From: Haloarcula sp. CBA1127
GTDB lineage: Archaea > Halobacteriota > Halobacteria > Halobacteriales > Haloarculaceae
NCBI RefSeq assembly: GCF_001485575.1
Contig: NZ_BCNB01000006.1
Span: 1,798,001-1,862,000, forward strand
Direction of reading: 5' to 3'
Length of the DNA: 64,000 nucleotides
In this document: positions 14,494 through 24,485 of the stretch, one piece after another
How positions within the stretch are numbered: position 1 is the stretch's first letter
Layout: each line of letters begins with the position of its first letter
Translations under genes and position numbers: made by a program
Notes under the pieces: generated by a model
What the model saw: only the letters and a program-made list of their open reading frames with translations
Database searches by the model: none
What the model was told of the DNA's origin: nothing

Positions 14494-16278
14494 ATGGTAG
14501 CAGGAGATATTGTGCTGACGGGGCTGATGGCCGTCCTCCTCGTCGGCGTCGCCGCGCTTCTCACCCGTGTCGAGAACTGGCGTTCGTATACGCCGCTCGC
14601 GGGTGGCGGGGCCGTCACGGGTGACGAGGCGGCAGTCATCAACCGTGAGAAACCCGCAGGTATCATTCGCTGGCTAACAACCGTCGACCACAAGGACATC
14701 GGTCTGTTGTACGGGGTGTACGCTGTCATCGCATTCGCCGTGGGCGGTATCATGGCGATGCTCATCCGCCTCCAGCTCGTCACGCCCGCTGGAGCCATCC
14801 TCAGCAACAACGCCTACAACTCCATCCTGACGAGTCACGGGATTACGATGCTGTTCCTGTTCGGGACGCCGATCATCGCGGCGTTCGCGAACTACTTCAT
14901 CCCCCTCCTCATCGGGGCTGACGACATGGCGTTTCCGCGTATCAACGCCATCGCGTTCTGGCTGCTCCCGCCGGCAGCACTGCTGATCTGGGCGGGGTTC
15001 TTCCTCGCACCGGTGACCGACAACATGATCGAACCGGCCCGAACGGCCTGGACGATGTACACGCCACTGTCGGTTGAGCAGGCGAACCCCGGCGTCGATC
15101 TGATGTTGCTCGGGCTGCATCTCTCCGGCGTCGCAGCGACGATGGGGGCGATCAACTTCATCGCGACCATCTTCACGGAGCGCAACGAGGAGGTCAACTG
15201 GGCAAACCTCGACATCTTCTCGTGGACGATGCTCACCCAGTCTGCGCTGATCCTGTTCGCGTTCCCGCTGCTGGGGAGCGCCATCGTGATGCTGCTGCTG
15301 GACCGGAACCTCCAGACGACGTTCTTCGCGGTCGAGGGTGGTGGCCCGCTGCTGTGGCAGCACCTGTTCTGGTTCTTCGGCCACCCTGAGGTGTATATCC
15401 TTGTCCTGCCGCCGATGGGACTGGTCAGCCTCATCCTGCCGAAGTTCTCGGGCCGGAAGCTGTTCGGCTTCAAGTTCGTCGTCTACTCGACGCTCGCCAT
15501 CGGCGTCCTCTCGTTCGGCGTCTGGGCCCACCATATGTTCTCGACGGGCATGGACCCGCGGCTCCGGGCGTCGTTCATGGCCGTCTCGTTGGCTATCGCA
15601 ATACCGAGCGCGGTCAAGACGTTCAACTGGATCACGACGATGTGGAACGGTCGCCTGCGGCTGACGACGCCGATGCTGTTCTGTATCGGCTTCGTCTCGA
15701 ACTTCATCATCGGCGGCGTCACGGGCGTGTTCCTCGCCTCCATCCCCGTCGACCTGATCCTGCACGACACCTACTACGTCGTCGGACACTTCCACTACAT
15801 CGTGATGGGAGCCATCGGCTTCGCGGCCTTCGCGGGCATCTACTACTGGTTCCCCATCTTCACTGGGCGGATGTATCAGCGCACTCTCGGGAAGGCACAC
15901 TTCTGGTTCTCGATGGTGGGAACCAACATCACGTTCTTCGCGATGCTTGCGCTCGGCTACCTGGGGATGCCGCGGCGCTACGCCACCTACCAGTTCGATG
16001 GTGCTATCGCGCCGCTGACGCAGGTGTCGACGTTCCACCAGGCGGCGACCGTCGGTGCGCTCATCCTGTTTATCGGCCAGCTGTTCTTCGTCTGGAACAT
16101 CGTCCAGTCCTGGCTCGAAGGCCCGAAGGTCGAGGACGGCGACCCGTGGAACCTCGAACGCAACGGTATGCTGGACCGTGAGTTCCAGTGGTTCGAGGAG
16201 CAACTCGAAGCCGACAGTCCGGAGAAGGACCCGTCGCTGCTCGCTGACGGCGGCCAGGAAGAACAAGACGACTCGTAA
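14494..16278 (+). CDS. coxA: Heme-copper terminal oxidase subunit I
   Basis: The catalytic subunit that reduces O2 to water and pumps protons. 594 residues, about 12-14 membrane helices. Signatures: TVDHKDIGLLYG at about residue 65, the low-spin heme ligand in LTSHGITML, ANYFIPLLIGADDMAFPR, the Cu-B/Tyr crosslink motif GHPEVYILVLP, the Cu-B pair in WAHHMFSTGMDPR, and heme ligands in VGHFHYIVMGAIGF. Glu in HPEV indicates an A1-like D-channel; the K-channel motif reads PSAVKTF with Ser in place of the usual Thr. Subunit II is not in this window. An extra N-terminal helix precedes the core. Confidence 0.93.
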   Translation: MVAGDIVLTGLMAVLLVGVAALLTRVENWRSYTPLAGGGAVTGDEAAVINREKPAGIIRWLTTVDHKDIGLLYGVYAVIAFAVGGIMAMLIRLQLVTPAGAILSNNAYNSILTSHGITMLFLFGTPIIAAFANYFIPLLIGADDMAFPRINAIAFWLLPPAALLIWAGFFLAPVTDNMIEPARTAWTMYTPLSVEQANPGVDLMLLGLHLSGVAATMGAINFIATIFTERNEEVNWANLDIFSWTMLTQSALILFAFPLLGSAIVMLLLDRNLQTTFFAVEGGGPLLWQHLFWFFGHPEVYILVLPPMGLVSLILPKFSGRKLFGFKFVVYSTLAIGVLSFGVWAHHMFSTGMDPRLRASFMAVSLAIAIPSAVKTFNWITTMWNGRLRLTTPMLFCIGFVSNFIIGGVTGVFLASIPVDLILHDTYYVVGHFHYIVMGAIGFAAFAGIYYWFPIFTGRMYQRTLGKAHFWFSMVGTNITFFAMLALGYLGMPRRYATYQFDGAIAPLTQVSTFHQAATVGALILFIGQLFFVWNIVQSWLEGPKVEDGDPWNLERNGMLDREFQWFEEQLEADSPEKDPSLLADGGQEEQDDS

Positions 16279-16770: not shown

Positions 16771-18474
16771 TCACGCAACGCTTGCCGTCTCCTGATAGCT
16801 TCCGTACTCTGCCTCGAAGACGGCCATGATCTCGCCCATCGTCGCGTAGGCTTTCACCGCGTCGATGATGACGGGCATGACGTTCTCGCCGTCGGTAATC
16901 ACTTGCTGCAGTTCGTCGAGCGTCGCTTCCACGGCCGCGTCGTCGCGCTCTGCCTTGACCGTCGCAAGCTTGTCCCGCTGGCGTTCCTGTACGTCCTCGT
17001 CGACGGTGAGAATCTCGGGTTCGGTGTCTTCCTCGACGGTGTACTTGTTGACGCCGACCATGACTTCTTCCTCGCTCTCGACGCGCTGCTGGTACTCGTA
17101 GGCGGCGTCCTGAATCTCACGCTGGAAGTAGCCGTCCTGAATCCCCTGAATGACGCCGTCGCGGACCGATCCGTCGCCGAGTTCGTCTCTGATGTGGTTG
17201 ATGTAGGCCATCGCCTTTTCTTCGACCTCGTCGGTCAGCGACTCGATTGCGAAACTGCCGCCCATCGGGTCGACGATGTCGGCGGCCCCTGACTCCTCCG
17301 CGATGATCTGCTGTGTCCGAAGGGCGACCCGAACCGCCTGTTCGGACGGGAGCGCCAGCGCCTCGTCGAAGCTGTTGGTGTGCAAGCTCTGGGTCCCGCC
17401 CAGCACACCCGCGAGGGCCTGAATCGTCACGCGGACGATGTTGTTCAGCGGTTGCTGGGCGGTTAGTGACTGGCCAGCGGTCTGGGTGTGGAACTTCAGT
17501 TGCTTGCTCGCGTCGGCCTCCGCGTCGTACCAGTCGTCCATCACGCGGGCGTAGATGCGCCGGGCCGCGCGGAACTTCGCGATTTCCTCGAACATGGAGT
17601 TGTGCGAATTGAAGAAAAAGGAGAGCTGTGGGGCGAACTCGTCGACCTCAAGCCCGCGATTCAGGCAGTCCTCGACGTAGGCGAAGCCGTCCGCGAGGGT
17701 GAACGCGAGTTCCTGTACTGCTGTCGAGCCAGCCTCCCGGATGTGATACCCCGACACCGAGATGGGCTTGAACTTCGGCGTCTCCTGACTGGCGAACTCG
17801 ATGGTGTCGGTGACGAGTTTCAGCGACGGCTCCGGCGGGATGACCCACTCCTTCTGTGCGATGAACTCCTTGAACATATCGTTCTGGAGAGTTCCGCGGA
17901 TCTCCTCGCGTGGGACCCCTTGCTGGTCGGCCAGCGCGATGTACATCGCGTAGATGACGGGAGCACTGGGGTTGATTGTGAAGGAGGTCGACACCTCGCC
18001 GAGGTTGATGCCGTCGAACAGCCGCTCCATGTCCGCCAGGGTGTCGACGGCGACACCCTCCTTGCCCACCTCGCCGTCGGCCATCACGTCGTCGGAGTCG
18101 ATCCCCATCAGCGTCGGCATATCGAAGGCCGTCGAGAGCCCGGTCTGGCCCTCGTCGATGAGGTAGTGGAACCGCTCGTTTGTCTCGTCAGCGGTCCCGA
18201 AGCCCGCGAACTGCCGCATGGTCCACTGTCGGCCGCGATACATCGTCGGATAGACGCCGCGTGTGAACGGCTCCTCGCCCGGGAAGCCGATGTCCTCCTC
18301 ATAATCGATGTCATCCACGTCGCGTGGCGTGTACAGCCGGTCTACATCCAGGTTTGAGACCGTCGCAAACTGTTCTTTGCGTTCACCGTAGGCGTCCAGT
18401 ACGGGGTCCAGTGTCTCGGCTTCCCACTCGTCTTTCTGCTCGCGGATTCGTTGGAGGTCTGACTCGTCGAACAT
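16771..18474 (-). CDS. mcmA: Methylmalonyl-CoA mutase, large (catalytic) subunit
   Basis: Interconverts succinyl-CoA and methylmalonyl-CoA, linking propionate and branched-chain degradation, or the methylaspartate cycle in Haloarcula, to central metabolism. The 567 residues cover the TIM-barrel substrate domain: FPGEEPFTRGVYPTMYRGR, QFAGFGTADETNERF, GLSTAFDMPTLMGIDSD, SVSGYHIREAGST and GGTQSLHTNSFDEAL are family signatures. The chain stops before the cobalamin-binding domain (no DxHxxG), so a separate small B12 subunit encoded elsewhere is needed, as usual in archaea. Convergent with the 16496 gene. Confidence 0.96.
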   Translation of the reverse strand: MFDESDLQRIREQKDEWEAETLDPVLDAYGERKEQFATVSNLDVDRLYTPRDVDDIDYEEDIGFPGEEPFTRGVYPTMYRGRQWTMRQFAGFGTADETNERFHYLIDEGQTGLSTAFDMPTLMGIDSDDVMADGEVGKEGVAVDTLADMERLFDGINLGEVSTSFTINPSAPVIYAMYIALADQQGVPREEIRGTLQNDMFKEFIAQKEWVIPPEPSLKLVTDTIEFASQETPKFKPISVSGYHIREAGSTAVQELAFTLADGFAYVEDCLNRGLEVDEFAPQLSFFFNSHNSMFEEIAKFRAARRIYARVMDDWYDAEADASKQLKFHTQTAGQSLTAQQPLNNIVRVTIQALAGVLGGTQSLHTNSFDEALALPSEQAVRVALRTQQIIAEESGAADIVDPMGGSFAIESLTDEVEEKAMAYINHIRDELGDGSVRDGVIQGIQDGYFQREIQDAAYEYQQRVESEEEVMVGVNKYTVEEDTEPEILTVDEDVQERQRDKLATVKAERDDAAVEATLDELQQVITDGENVMPVIIDAVKAYATMGEIMAVFEAEYGSYQETASVA

Positions 18475-18549: not shown

Positions 18550-19341
18550 CTAGTCTTGGAGTCGTTCCGTCGTCTGTACGAGCGGGTGGTGTGCGTAGTC
18601 GACGACCTCGATATCGTCGATTGACTCTAGATCGGAATCTGCGGCCGTCTCGGCCATCCCCAGTTCGACCGTCTCATCGAGGACGATGACGTAGGCGTCC
18701 ATCTCGTCGATATCGAGCCGTGCGGCGGCTTTCACCCGGTGGTGACCATCCGCCAGCAGGAGGTCCCCGCCGTTGTCGATGACGACGAGTGGTTCCGCCA
18801 GTCCCCGTTCGAGTTCGTACACCCGGCCTTCGAGTTCGTCGGCGTACACCGTTGTCTGTGTTGGCGTCAGGTCGTCGAGGTCCACCTCACGGCGGCCTTC
18901 GTGTGTCGTGATCCCGTGGATGTTCTCGAGTGTCCGGCCGAGTTTGTCTACCTTGCCCGGTGTCGCCCGTTCGATCTGGGAGCGGATCACGTCGGCGTTC
19001 GAGATGATACCGACGAGGTGGCCGGCGTCGTCGACAACCGGGAGTTTCTGGATGCCCGACCGCAGGATAACGCGCGCTGCGTCCTGCACGGCCATGTCGG
19101 GATGTGCCACGAGGATATCGTCGGTCATCACGCGGAACATCGGCTCGTGGTCCTCCGCGAGCAGCAGGTCGCGCGCACTGACGAATCCTTCGACCCGGCG
19201 GCCGTCAGTCACCGGAAACCCGCTGAAGTGGTCATTGTCGGCGATTCGTCGGGCGACTTCCCCGACGGTATCATCGAGTTCGACGGTGGCAACCTCGCGT
19301 GTCATATAGTCCCCGACCGTCGGGCGATTCGAATCCTCCAT
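18550..19341 (-). CDS. CBS-pair protein with ParB/SerK-like C-terminal domain
   Basis: 263 residues. Two CBS motifs come first: VGDYMTREVATVELDDTV with FPVTDGRRVEGFVSARDLL, then VMTDDILVAHPDMAVQDAA with LPVVDDAGHLVGIISNADVI. They should bind adenosine nucleotides. The C-terminal half (about 140-263) has a ParB/sulfiredoxin-superfamily core with DLLLADGHHRVKAA, the DGHHR motif, and VYADELEGRVYEL. Related archaeal proteins include the ADP-dependent serine kinase SerK, so a kinase rather than a nuclease is possible. The ATG at 19341 is preferred over a TTG at 19368. Confidence 0.75.
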   Translation of the reverse strand: MEDSNRPTVGDYMTREVATVELDDTVGEVARRIADNDHFSGFPVTDGRRVEGFVSARDLLLAEDHEPMFRVMTDDILVAHPDMAVQDAARVILRSGIQKLPVVDDAGHLVGIISNADVIRSQIERATPGKVDKLGRTLENIHGITTHEGRREVDLDDLTPTQTTVYADELEGRVYELERGLAEPLVVIDNGGDLLLADGHHRVKAAARLDIDEMDAYVIVLDETVELGMAETAADSDLESIDDIEVVDYAHHPLVQTTERLQD

Positions 19342-19379: not shown

Positions 19380-21095
19380 CTATAGTGGTTCGCCGTCGTC
19401 GGGTTCGACGAGCGTTTCCGGGCTGTCCTCTCCCTGTTCTGCCTCGTCGTCTGTCGGTTCAGCCGCGTCGGCTGCCTGGTCTGTCTCGTCACCACCGTCT
19501 TCGTCGCCGTTCTCCAGAAACATCACATCGCTGTTCCAGTCCGCTGTGCCGTCGTCACCAGACTCTCCAGATGCGCCTTCGCCCGTCGCTGGGGTGTCGT
19601 CGCTGTCCTGACTAAGCGCCGTCGACTCCGTGAACGCGGCCACATCGTAGTCAGCGCGGGCGTAGACGCGCCCGAGCAGCCGGTGGGACCGCGACTGGAC
19701 AGCGTCGAGAAACCGATTCGAAACGATAGCGCGGACAATCTCCTCCAGCGATTCCTCGCGGTCGTCGACGGTAATCATCCCTACGTCGATCTGTGCGCCC
19801 GCCATATCGGCGTGACCGCCCGCGGACCCGATCTGTCCGAAGGCGTCCCGCAGCGCCTCGCCGAGGTCGATATCTGCTCCACGTGCCCGAGCAGAGACGT
19901 ATATCGTCCCGTCGACGACGCCGTACACCATCGTCGTCTGGACGCCTTCGAGGTCGAGTAGCCTGTCAGCCGCCTGTGCGAGCGCGTCCCGGTCACTGAT
20001 CTCACCGACACCAGTCAGGAGCACTGAGCCCTCCTGATCGCGGTTTGCAATCGCGCGGCCGATGACCGACAGTGTCTCCGGGCTCACGCTCGGGTCTTCG
20101 ATGCGCTGGAGCGTCGCCATGTCGGCGTTCGTTACGAGGTGCGCGGCAGCCTCGAAGTCCGCGGCAGCGACCTCCCGGCGGAAGTCCTTCGTGTCGACCT
20201 GAATGCCGAACAACAGGCCCGTTGCGATGGGGGTCGGAATGTCGACGTTGAACCGCTGGAGGTAGTCGACCAGCAGCGTGCTCGTCGCCCCGACGCCGCT
20301 CCGGAGGTCGACGAAGCGGGCCTCTATCGGAACGCGTGGCGGATGATGGTCGATGACGATATCGATGGGGGTCTCTGGCGGGAGCTGGTCGTTGACACCG
20401 GCTCTGGAGTGGTCGACGAGCGCGAACGCGTCGAACGCTTCTAGTTCGTCCGGTGAATCGGCATCGAGGTTCCGGAGGTCGAATTCGAGGAGGTTGACAA
20501 ACGCCCGGTTCTCCTGATGGGAAATCTCCCCGTAGTAACAGATCGTCACCTCGCAGTCAGCTCGTTCAGCGAGCGCGCCGAGGGCGACAGCGCTGGCAAT
20601 CGCGTCAGGGTCGGGATTATCGTGCGTGACGACGGCGAGATGGTCGTCAATGTCCCGGAGAACCTGATGGAGCTGTCTGGCCCGTGTTCCCTCGTCGCCG
20701 ACCGACTGGGTGACGTAGTCGGTAACGACAGACTCCGGCGTGACGAGCCGGTCCGACACGGTATCGAGTCGGTCACGCTGGTCTGCCGTCGCGCCGCGGC
20801 CGGCGTAGGCGAGAAGGAACACGTCGGGAAAGCAGTCACGGGCGGCCGTCGCCGCGTCGGCGTTCCGTTCCGAGTCTTCACTGGCGACGATGACGCTCTC
20901 GGGGTGAAAATCGAGATTGGCGAGAACAGATGGGTCAGTCTGGTCGGCTTCGAGTACGTTGATCCCGTCCGCCCGGAGCGTTTCAGCACGGTGCTCGTCC
21001 TGGGTCACGACTGCCAGCTCGCCGCGGTCGTCGCTAATCGCGTCGAGAAGGTCCGCGGCCGTCGGCCCGAGTCCGAGCACCAGCCGAGAAAGCAT
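19380..21095 (-). CDS. TrkA_N-DHH-DHHA1 fusion phosphoesterase
   Basis: 571 residues with three parts. Residues 1-125 form a Rossmann NAD-binding/RCK-N-like domain (LVLGLGPTAADLLDAI, later NLDFHPESVIVASEDSERN). Residues about 150-320 form a DHH phosphoesterase, with metal motifs THDNPDPDAIASA, ALVDHSRAG, VIDHHPP and FGIQVDTKDFR. Residues about 360-460 form DHHA1, ending in GSAGGHADMAGAQI. The last 90 residues are acidic and disordered. DHH-DHHA1 enzymes degrade nanoRNA or cyclic dinucleotides such as c-di-AMP; the ligand-binding domain suggests regulated activity. All catalytic motifs look intact. The exact substrate cannot be told from sequence. Confidence 0.88.
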   Translation of the reverse strand: MLSRLVLGLGPTAADLLDAISDDRGELAVVTQDEHRAETLRADGINVLEADQTDPSVLANLDFHPESVIVASEDSERNADAATAARDCFPDVFLLAYAGRGATADQRDRLDTVSDRLVTPESVVTDYVTQSVGDEGTRARQLHQVLRDIDDHLAVVTHDNPDPDAIASAVALGALAERADCEVTICYYGEISHQENRAFVNLLEFDLRNLDADSPDELEAFDAFALVDHSRAGVNDQLPPETPIDIVIDHHPPRVPIEARFVDLRSGVGATSTLLVDYLQRFNVDIPTPIATGLLFGIQVDTKDFRREVAAADFEAAAHLVTNADMATLQRIEDPSVSPETLSVIGRAIANRDQEGSVLLTGVGEISDRDALAQAADRLLDLEGVQTTMVYGVVDGTIYVSARARGADIDLGEALRDAFGQIGSAGGHADMAGAQIDVGMITVDDREESLEEIVRAIVSNRFLDAVQSRSHRLLGRVYARADYDVAAFTESTALSQDSDDTPATGEGASGESGDDGTADWNSDVMFLENGDEDGGDETDQAADAAEPTDDEAEQGEDSPETLVEPDDGEPL

Positions 21096-21644: not shown

Positions 21645-22583
21645 TTATTTGTGATGTTCGAGGAGGTTGTCGTAGGTCCGCTCCCACTCCGCGTCCTCGT
21701 CGAAGTACCGCTCTGCGAGCGGTTCCTCTGGCATCTCACCGATCTGGCGCTTCTCCTCGCCGTAGGAGGGGCGCTCGTCTTCGATGTACATCCGACCGGT
21801 GAGCACTTCGCCCTCGTACAGTCGTTCCTCGGTCTTTCGCATCATCTCGGCTGCTTCCGCGCGGTCCGAGACGTCGAAGTCGAACTCGTCGGACTGCTGA
21901 ACGTCCGTGTACGGGACGTAGTGTTTCGCGTCCTTGTTCCAGGTCGGACACTGGGTCAGGAAGTCGATGTGCGCGAAGCCGTCGTGCTCGATGGCTTCGG
22001 CGATGATTTCCTTCGCCTGGTTCGGGTTGACAGCCGCGGTCCGGGCGATGTAGGTCGCACCGGCGTTGAGCTGCTGGGACAGGGGGCGAATCGGCGACTT
22101 CGCCGAGCCGTGTGGTTGTGTCTTGGACTTGTGGCCCTTCGGCGATGTCGGGGATGTCTGACCCTTTGTCAGCCCGAAGATCTCGTTGTTGAACACGATA
22201 TACGTCATATCGTGGTTCTCACGGGCCGTGTGGATGGTGTGGTTCCCACCGATACCGTAGCCGTCGCCGTCCCCACCGGCTGCGATGACTTCGAGGTTAG
22301 GGTTGGCGAGCTTCGCGGCCCGGGCGACGGGCAGCGAGCGGCCGTGGATGGTGTGGAAGCCGTAGCTGTTGAAGTAGCTGTTGAGCTTCCCCGAACAGCC
22401 GATACCGGTGAACAGCGCGACTTCGTCAGGGTTCTTGCCGACTTCCGGCATGGCCTGCTTGAGCGCCTTGAGGACGCCGAAGTCGCCACAGCCCGGACAC
22501 CAGGTCGCCTGGGGTTCGATGCCGGGTGTAAACTCGTCGCGCTCGATTTCGCGTTCTTCGTTGATTGCTGAGAATGCACTCAT
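21645..22583 (-). CDS. porB: Pyruvate (2-oxoacid):ferredoxin oxidoreductase beta subunit
   Basis: Thiamine-diphosphate subunit of the CoA-acetylating pyruvate oxidation complex that reduces ferredoxin. 312 residues. Cys residues in TWCPGCGDFG, TGIGCSGKLN and LTQCPTWNKD fit the single 4Fe-4S cluster, and GGDGDGYGIGGNHT is the ThDP/metal motif. Length and sequence match the Halobacterium PorB as I remember it more than KorB. It begins 3 nt after the porA stop; the two form one operon. Confidence 0.9.
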   Translation of the reverse strand: MSAFSAINEEREIERDEFTPGIEPQATWCPGCGDFGVLKALKQAMPEVGKNPDEVALFTGIGCSGKLNSYFNSYGFHTIHGRSLPVARAAKLANPNLEVIAAGGDGDGYGIGGNHTIHTARENHDMTYIVFNNEIFGLTKGQTSPTSPKGHKSKTQPHGSAKSPIRPLSQQLNAGATYIARTAAVNPNQAKEIIAEAIEHDGFAHIDFLTQCPTWNKDAKHYVPYTDVQQSDEFDFDVSDRAEAAEMMRKTEERLYEGEVLTGRMYIEDERPSYGEEKRQIGEMPEEPLAERYFDEDAEWERTYDNLLEHHK

Positions 22584-22586
22584 AGG

Positions 22587-24485
22587 TTAGTCACCTGCCG
22601 CGGGTACGTACTTCATGTTGCTCGCGGCGAGTTCCTCGCCGTCGATGCTGGATTCGAACCCGTCGACGATCTCGGCGGGCTCGAACGGGTTGCCGTTGTA
22701 CTTCAGGAGGCTCGACATCTTGTCGCCGTACTTGCCGAGTTCCTTCTGGGTCAGACCGCGGAACTGGGCCGTGGCGTTCATCTCGACGACGAGCGCCTCG
22801 TCGACTGATTCGAGCCACTCGGAGACTTCCTCCTTCGGGTACGGAGCCATGTCGGAGACGCCAAGCGCCTTCACGGAATGGCCGTTCTCGTTGAGTCGAT
22901 CGACGGCCTCGAAGACGGTCCCCTGCTGGCTGCCCCACACGAGGATGCCGTAGTCGGCTTCGTCGGGTCCGTGGTAGGTCTGGTGGGACGTGTTCTCGTC
23001 CAGATCAGCACGGATGTCGTCGAGCTTGTTGAGCCGACGGTTCATCTGGGCGATGCGGTTCTCGGGGTCCTCGCTGATGTGGCCCGACGGATTGTGCTCG
23101 TTGCCCGTTGCGAGGAAGCGGCCGTCCTTCTGGCCCGGCACGGAGCGCGGGCTGACGTTCGAGCCGTCCTCGGGTTCGTGGAGGAACCGCTGGAACTTCC
23201 CGGAGGAGTGGTGTGCTGCGTCCTGAATCTCCTCTTCGGTGAGGACCGAGCCGGGATCGGCGTTTGGCTCCTCATCGAAGTGGCTGGCCGGGAGGTTTCG
23301 GAGTTCGCCCTGGATCTTCTGGTCGTAGATGACGATGACCGGGATCTGGTACTCGTAGGCGATGCGGAACGCCGAGCGGGTCTGCGTGTAACACTCGCGG
23401 ATGTTCGCCGGTGCGAACACGACGCGGGCGGAGTCGCCCTGTGACGTGTACAGGACGTGTTCGAGGTCAGCCTGCTCGGGCTTGGTCGGCATTCCCGTCG
23501 AGGGGCCGGCTCGCATCGCTTCGACCAGCACGATCGGCGTCTCGGTCATCTCTGCCAGTCCGAGCGGTTCGGACATCAGCGCGAAGCCGCCGCCGGAGGA
23601 CCCGGACATGGCTTTCACGCCAGCGTGGGACGCACCGAGCGCCAGCGCGGCGGCCGCGATCTCGTCTTCGACCTGTTCGGAGATCCCGCCGAACGAGGGC
23701 AGGTGCTGTGACATGATCGTGAACACGTCGGTCCACGGGGTCATGGGGTAGCCCGAAATGAAGCGACAGCCCTCGTCGATTGCGCCGTAGGAGATGGCGT
23801 TCGAGCCCGAGAGAATGACCTGCTCCTCGTCGTGGGAGTCCTCAGGAACCTCAATGTCGTGGTCGACATCGAGTTCGCTGGCGGCTTCGTAGGCGTCGTG
23901 CAGGACGTTAAGATTCGCCTCCTGCATATCGCCGCTCATGTTCTGTTTGATGAGCTTCTCGAACTCGTCGGTGCTGATGTCGAGAATGGCCGCGGTCGCG
24001 CCGATACCGGCCGTGTTCCGCATGATCTCGCGGCCGTGCTCCTTGGCGATGCCGCGGAGGTCCATCGGGACGACGTGCCAGTTGTTCTCCTCGGCGGCCT
24101 CTTCGAGACCGATCTCGTCGACGTCCTCGTCGTCGAGCAGGCCCTCGTCGTACAGCAAGACGCCACCTTCTCGGAGGTCGTCGAAGTTCTCGTACAGCGG
24201 TTTGAGCTCTTCTTTGCCGTAGTAGGCCTCTTCCTGCGGGTTCCGGGCGAACGAGTCACCCAGTGCGAGCAGGAAGTTGTAGCCGTCCCCGCGAGACTGT
24301 ACCGGTTCGTCCTTCGCACGTACCTCTACGTACGTGTGGCCGCCGCGGATACGCGACGGGTAATGACGATGTGTGAACACGTTCAGCCCCGACCACATCA
24401 AGGCCTTCGCGAAGTTCTGGCTTGTCGAGTCGATTCCGTCACCGGAACCACCGGCGATTCGCCAGATTAGTTCGTTGTCTGTCAT
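22587..24485 (-). CDS. porA: Pyruvate (2-oxoacid):ferredoxin oxidoreductase alpha subunit (gamma-alpha fusion)
   Basis: 632 residues. Residues 1-190 are the gamma domain (IWRIAGGSGDGIDSTSQNFA, HRHYPSRIRGGHTYVEVR). Residues about 215-632 are the alpha domain, with the pyrimidine-binding region ISYGAIDEGCRFISGYPMTP, the EDEIAAAALALGASHAGVKA segment, and SGSSGGGFALMSEPLG. No ferredoxin-like delta domain is attached, typical for haloarchaea, where ferredoxin is a separate 2Fe-2S protein. Choice of pyruvate rather than 2-oxoglutarate is by length and recall of Halobacterium PorA (about 630) versus KorA (about 590). The ATG is preceded by GAGGATTTCACA, a possible ribosome binding site. Confidence 0.9.
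   Translation of the reverse strand: MTDNELIWRIAGGSGDGIDSTSQNFAKALMWSGLNVFTHRHYPSRIRGGHTYVEVRAKDEPVQSRGDGYNFLLALGDSFARNPQEEAYYGKEELKPLYENFDDLREGGVLLYDEGLLDDEDVDEIGLEEAAEENNWHVVPMDLRGIAKEHGREIMRNTAGIGATAAILDISTDEFEKLIKQNMSGDMQEANLNVLHDAYEAASELDVDHDIEVPEDSHDEEQVILSGSNAISYGAIDEGCRFISGYPMTPWTDVFTIMSQHLPSFGGISEQVEDEIAAAALALGASHAGVKAMSGSSGGGFALMSEPLGLAEMTETPIVLVEAMRAGPSTGMPTKPEQADLEHVLYTSQGDSARVVFAPANIRECYTQTRSAFRIAYEYQIPVIVIYDQKIQGELRNLPASHFDEEPNADPGSVLTEEEIQDAAHHSSGKFQRFLHEPEDGSNVSPRSVPGQKDGRFLATGNEHNPSGHISEDPENRIAQMNRRLNKLDDIRADLDENTSHQTYHGPDEADYGILVWGSQQGTVFEAVDRLNENGHSVKALGVSDMAPYPKEEVSEWLESVDEALVVEMNATAQFRGLTQKELGKYGDKMSSLLKYNGNPFEPAEIVDGFESSIDGEELAASNMKYVPAAGD

Follow-up and report, generated by a model that had tools for sequence, protein, structure and literature searches.

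A CBS domain pair fused to a ParB-CTPase-like fold is an architecture already published for archaea (Kaljevic et al., 2025, PNAS; PMC12704722). In the sections of that paper available to us, the CBS-ParB protein is described as the ParB-fold fusion most often found in archaea, nucleotide binding is suggested to be coupled to metabolic state, and no function, ligand or gene neighbourhood is given for the CBS fusion. The legend to Figure 4 of the same paper labels the CBS domain PF03471, whereas the Pfam CBS family is PF00571, probably a labelling slip. No paper on the CBS-ParB protein itself was recognised in the literature searched.

Each half of the fusion resembles described proteins. Canonical ParB/Noc CTPases (PDB 4umk, 6sdk and 7bnk) share with the protein described here the fold, a box I glutamine and the GxxR phosphate motif. 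SerK (TK0378, an ADP-dependent free serine kinase, PDB 5x0b-5x0k) shares the ParB/sulfiredoxin fold, the sequence VDGHHR and an archaeal host; its homologues have been reported from Thermococcales and Desulfurococcales only, and in Desulfurococcales the SerK genes adjoin serine/cysteine metabolism genes (PMC5120207). The CBS half has the fold of the c-di-AMP receptors DarB/CbpB, though DarB lacks a ParB-fold domain. According to the parts of the respective papers available to us, Haloferax volcanii contains both c-di-AMP and pApA, with the degrading enzymes stated as unknown (PMC8646023), and its c-di-AMP-degrading enzyme had not yet been identified in 2021, candidates having been proposed (PMC8305020). 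We recognised no paper identifying that enzyme in the open-access literature searched.

The window analysed here is a stretch of 64,000 nucleotides from Haloarcula sp. CBA1127, and it encodes a protein (P0001) with the architecture described by Kaljevic et al. (Table 1). What is new is a predicted active site that is a hybrid of those of SerK and ParB, a comparison with SerK that fails to support kinase identity, and an operon with a DHH-family phosphoesterase gene.

Table 1. Features of the CBS-ParB gene and the flanking genes, in window positions
Feature	Position	Strand	Basis
CBS-CBS-ParB/Srx-fold protein P0001, 263 aa + stop	18550..19341	-	ORF, Pfam, orthologue alignment
CBS repeat 1, residues 8-62, GFVSARDL motif, D58 in 119/122	19156..19320	-	Pfam, fold match, conservation
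CBS repeat 2, residues 68-124, GIISNADV motif, D117 in 122/122	18970..19140	-	Pfam, fold match, conservation
ParB/sulfiredoxin/SerK-fold core, residues 153-222	18676..18885	-	profile matches, AlphaFold2, Foldseek
Box I PTQ, residues 160-162; Q162 opposite SerK E30 and ParB box I Gln	18856..18864	-	alignment, conservation
Box II DGHHR, residues 198-202, nucleotide-phosphate (P) motif	18736..18750	-	alignment, conservation
Tail, residues 223-258, with conserved ELGM..TA ... VVDYAHHPLV, replacing ParB box III and HTH	18568..18675	-	alignment, conservation
TrkA_N (RCK_N) + DHH + DHHA1 phosphoesterase gene, directly upstream, same strand	19380..21095	-	Pfam, locus comparison
Large subunit of methylmalonyl-CoA mutase, downstream; neighbour kept less often	16771..18474	-	Pfam, locus comparison

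A conserved archaeal gene family

The coding region is a single ORF of 263 codons and a stop, opening with an ATG at 19341. A mechanical ORF call also offers an in-frame TTG 27 bases upstream, but aligned orthologues start at or near the ATG. Of 41 related genomes, 38 carry full-length CBS-ParB orthologues (a row-by-row count; a raw tally of 40/41 takes in CBS-only matches). Across the phylum, 248 of 392 sampled genomes have a match to a C-terminal domain profile, including 224 of the 320 near-complete ones. This distribution confirms that the ORF is a real gene and belongs to a conserved archaeal family. The seven best named relative records are all from Haloarcula and 95-99% identical, and each of the 20 loci retrieved by region from the phylum-wide search encodes a complete CBS-CBS-ParB-like protein that shares 47-63% identity with the one in the window. 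Residue conservation was counted over 122 distinct family sequences, every one of which keeps both PTQ and DGHHR.

One incomplete assembly from the same genus (G006) also contains, at L030:6019-6786, a further CBS-ParB homologue that is divergent, at 46% identity. This homologue has altered motifs in its first CBS repeat and may be a paralogue or contamination.

An intact CBS pair

The sequence-only reading that preceded this analysis had placed a CBS pair ahead of a ParB-like domain, and this arrangement holds: Pfam recognises two CBS repeats (PF00571, E=6.9e-26), and their adenosyl-ligand motifs are intact. The aspartate of the GhhSxxD motif in each repeat (D58 and D117), which we take to be the ribose-contacting residue, is kept in all or nearly all of the distinct sequences (Table 1). 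Tandem repeats with a predicted ribose-binding aspartate in both are what a CBS-domain nucleotide sensor would be expected to have.

An AlphaFold2 model of the whole protein is of moderate confidence only (mean pLDDT 71). Within it, residues 14-134 superimpose on the archaeal CBS tandem 5g5r (Z 15.4, 118 residues, 2.1 A), and the CBS pair also matches the DarB/CbpB structure 8ad6 (Z 13.0, 112 residues, 2.1 A). CBS pairs with bound AMP, ATP or c-di-AMP are all near-equal matches, and many of those with AMP or ATP score at least as well as 8ad6, so structure does not name the ligand.

A hybrid predicted active site on a ParB fold

Because the CBS half filled the fold search of the whole model, the ParB-like half was modelled and searched separately. 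The lone C-terminal domain gives a confident model (pLDDT 90.7), and the best 50 Foldseek rows are all ParB, Noc, KorB, sulfiredoxin, SerK, PadC or Atu1540 chains. Sequence comparisons agree with this placement. The window protein scores below threshold against ParBc_2 (PF08857; 20.2 bits, cut-off 23.6), a family that touches 25 of 25 family C-terminal domains, while ParB_N (PF02195) touches 17 of the 25 (E<=1). When compared with the PDB, the C-terminal profile finds ParB/Noc/Spo0J, SerK and SbnI, the best matches being the ParB/Noc chains 4umk (5.8e-5) and 6sdk (3e-4). The earlier assignment to the ParB/sulfiredoxin/SerK superfamily, and the DGHHR motif on which it drew, are thus borne out.

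Structural alignment with VIA-align 2 does not single out one member of this group. Atu1540 is the best match to the domain model (Z 10.5, 100 residues, 2.6 A), followed by sulfiredoxins (Z 8.3-9.5), SerK (7.5-8.0) and ParB/Noc (mostly 6.5-7.8), a spread too small to favour SerK. A structural comparison with SerK had been proposed along with the sequence-only reading; once run, it put SerK no nearer to the domain model than sulfiredoxin or ParB.

The nucleotide-facing motifs combine features of two relatives. Q162, H200 and R202 are each invariant in the 122 sequences. The first is the glutamine of ParB box I, the last is the GxxR arginine shared with ParB CTPases, and both lie in a predicted active site whose box II reads DGHHR as in SerK. 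The glutamate of the ParB box II motif GERR is replaced by H200 throughout the family. Near the aligned box III glutamate of ParB, position 231 is variable, being mostly Glu, Arg or Lys. The glutamate of SerK that we take to be catalytic, Glu30, lies opposite Q162. A site with neither the SerK nor the ParB catalytic glutamate would be predicted to bind without their known chemistry.

Experimental work on ParB-fold proteins bears on this prediction. In the sections of Kaljevic et al. available to us, mutation of the GxxR arginine abolished nucleotide binding in the proteins tested; against the prediction, 17 of 28 ParB-fold proteins tested bound no NTP (PMC12704722). With the catalytic residues gone, the GxxR arginine invariant and such arginine mutants non-binding, nucleotide binding without known chemistry is the plainest prediction for the family.

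A haloarchaeal pairing with a candidate phosphodiesterase gene

The CBS-ParB ORF begins 38 bp past the stop codon of a TrkA_N-DHH-DHHA1 gene on the same strand. We surveyed 80 named haloarchaeal loci, drawn from 432 relatives, for seven window genes. In 77 of the 80 the DHH gene is found upstream in the same orientation, in 72 of them within 500 bp. Control neighbours are kept far less closely: methylmalonyl-CoA mutase is present in 51 loci (29 within 500 bp), whereas Lrp (39 loci), two genes at 21645-24485 that look por-like by eye (36) and a frame at 14494 that looks coxA-like by eye (24) are never within 500 bp. The 80 loci are related and do not represent 80 independent events. Of 14 loci representing one order-level family each, 11 have the DHH gene; it shares the strand of the CBS-ParB gene at 10 loci and comes within 500 bp of it at seven.

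Among the loci examined this pairing is haloarchaeal only. No DHH gene lies within ~6 kb of the CBS-ParB gene at any of 19 loci from more distant genomes; of the 20 loci from the phylum search, the single one with a DHH gene nearby comes from the window's own family. The distant loci have mixed neighbours with no clear theme (HisE-like, Hsp20-like, CBS-HTH and nucleotidyltransferase-like by eye).

At five distant loci the next gene after CBS-ParB, in the same orientation, is a small HisE-like one (phosphoribosyl-ATP pyrophosphohydrolase-like, by eye) (L147:6914-7192, L149:6956-7282, L155:7258-7542, L156:6223-6498 and L160:6116-6409), possibly another link to nucleotide metabolism.

The architecture of the upstream gene product has been noted for arCOG01566, in the part of that source available to us (PMC3307487). 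Its DHH and DHHA1 domains carry the metal-binding motifs of c-di-AMP phosphodiesterases, and DHH, DPD and GGH are kept in the 107 partner proteins long enough to test (95 fit all four strict patterns, and the other 12 show PDPDA, DHH and GGH). The closest solved structure by sequence to partner residues 146-455 is 9n0l (E=2e-17), which the PDB names a cyclic-di-AMP phosphodiesterase and which is of the GdpP type. It has the DHH-DHHA1 arrangement and matching motifs; the partner adds the N-terminal TrkA_N domain. The window's genome has eight DHHA1 matches, partner included. We compared four of these eight with the PDB, namely the partner and three DHH-DHHA1 paralogues (recognised by eye). All of the paralogues compared match the phosphodiesterase 5xsi/5xt3, but one reaches 9n0l only at 4e-6 and two do not match it at 1e-3. 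The partner is thus the most like 9n0l of the four compared, and judging by these motifs and matches it is a candidate c-di-AMP/pApA phosphodiesterase.

Two paralogues of this kind are notable. In the window's genome, L173:391-1875 encodes another TrkA_N-DHH-DHHA1-like protein, whose DHH motif reads DHY, so that it may be catalytically altered. The DHH-DHHA1 paralogue at L171:1420-2619 has a hydrophobic stretch at its N terminus and competes with the partner as a candidate c-di-AMP phosphodiesterase, in its case a membrane-anchored one.

A proposed nucleotide-binding regulator and its closest alternatives

We tentatively favour a reading in which the CBS-ParB protein is a nucleotide-binding regulator that senses adenosine nucleotides and is linked in haloarchaea to the candidate phosphodiesterase, though we stop short of calling it probable. 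The CBS pair would sense AMP, ADP or ATP, or else c-di-AMP or its product pApA, and the ParB-fold domain would couple this sensing to its own binding of NTPs. In haloarchaea the protein may report to, or control, the partner phosphodiesterase. Probably it would serve as a binding switch or hydrolyse NTPs weakly, and not phosphorylate free serine. In favour of a regulator are the loss of both catalytic glutamates (E30 of SerK to Q162, that of GERR to H200) and the invariance of the phosphate-binding GxxR arginine. The adjoining, likely phosphodiesterase gene suggests a role in nucleotide signalling. Against the partner link, operon neighbours need not interact, and the phosphodiesterase role has at least four DHH-DHHA1 paralogues as contenders. 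The tight haloarchaeal pair nonetheless makes such a role testable, in a setting where, as far as the available part of the source goes, the corresponding Haloferax enzyme was unidentified in 2021 (PMC8305020).

The alternative that survives best is a general sensor of energy or adenosine nucleotides in central metabolism, acting for example on methylmalonyl-CoA mutase, with the DHH neighbour incidental or merely co-expressed. The conservation of CBS-ParB in many genomes without an adjacent DHH gene, the mixed neighbours in more distant genomes and the frequent presence of the mutase gene downstream all agree with it. We nevertheless consider it rather unlikely, given that the DHH gene is by far the best-kept haloarchaeal neighbour and stands within 500 bp at more than twice as many loci as the mutase gene.

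The favoured nucleotide-binding regulator can also be cast in a more specific form, in which the protein is a haloarchaeal receptor for c-di-AMP or pApA, forms with the TrkA_N-DHH-DHHA1 protein the missing sensing and degradation module of c-di-AMP signalling in archaea, and uses its ParB fold to gauge NTP without catalysis. Some connection with the turnover of c-di-AMP/pApA is plausible, but this full version seems improbable to us. The 19 more distant loci lack the gene pair. A diadenylate cyclase is found in 350 of the 392 phylum genomes and is so nearly universal that its co-occurrence with CBS-ParB is uninformative. At least five cyclase-lacking genomes (G063, G100, G129, G208 and G218, among 20 listed, with 22 further ones unlisted) carry the CBS-ParB domain, so c-di-AMP cannot be an obligate ligand across the family, and that proposal is weakened by the phylogenetic distribution. 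A haloarchaeal specialisation for c-di-AMP is possible.

Kinase, partition and reductase readings

The sequence-only reading had proposed an energy-regulated amino acid kinase. Taken as a SerK-type enzyme, this would be a CBS-regulated free serine kinase using another residue as base. The family shares DGHHR with SerK, 23 of 25 family C-terminal domains give some match to the NCBIfam SerK model NF053625 (E=7.2e-7 at best), and the invariant acidic residues D168, E169 and D198 could in principle act. The detailed comparison runs the other way. A HMMER alignment of the family profile with SerK chain 5x0j passes through a shared proline and places Q162 opposite SerK position 30, which is Gln in 5x0j, Glu in the wild type and Ala in another deposit; the PDB titles name these chains E30Q and E30A mutants. 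The invariant glutamine of the family thus equals the substitution carried by the deposited E30Q mutant. This register stands on HMMER and the shared proline, since hhalign against two SerK fragments aligned box II alone and recovered no Glu30 register either way. Between residues 160 and 167 any Asp or Glu occurs in just 11 of the 122 sequences, none of it conserved.

Overall similarity to SerK is also slight. The best of six individually scored proteins, which also holds the best E-value in the 25-member scan, reaches 28.6 bits, far under the curated NF053625 equivalog cut-off of 380, and the window protein does not match the model at E 0.1. Structural alignments span SerK residues 13-221 with just 79-97 aligned positions, leaving ~100 SerK residues without a counterpart, and SerK in turn has no CBS pair. 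The immediate neighbours in the window are the DHH gene, Lrp and methylmalonyl-CoA mutase. Kinase identity is not supported by the sequence and structure comparisons, and we have dropped a SerK-type kinase as the leading reading, regarding it as quite doubtful.

That the protein is a ParB-like DNA clamp dependent on CTP, or a partition protein, is very improbable, even though ParB/Noc chains are the top profile matches and box I has the ParB glutamine. The window protein ends ~40 residues past the fold core and has no Pfam match to an HTH or C-terminal dimer domain at E<=1; ParB_N is unmatched in it at the same threshold and at the locus in a whole-genome search. With the box II glutamate also replaced and no conserved box III glutamate, we reject a chromosome partition ParB, in agreement with the sequence-only reading, which had suggested that this may not be a chromosome protein. 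A sulfiredoxin-like cysteine sulfinic acid reductase is rejected with near certainty, since despite Z scores about as high as any match the family has no conserved cysteine that could be catalytic (any Cys within residues 150-263 in 6/122).

The sole ParB_N match in the window's genome lies on another contig (G000:C8:21285-21530; L166), in an uncharacterised frame of 258 aa.
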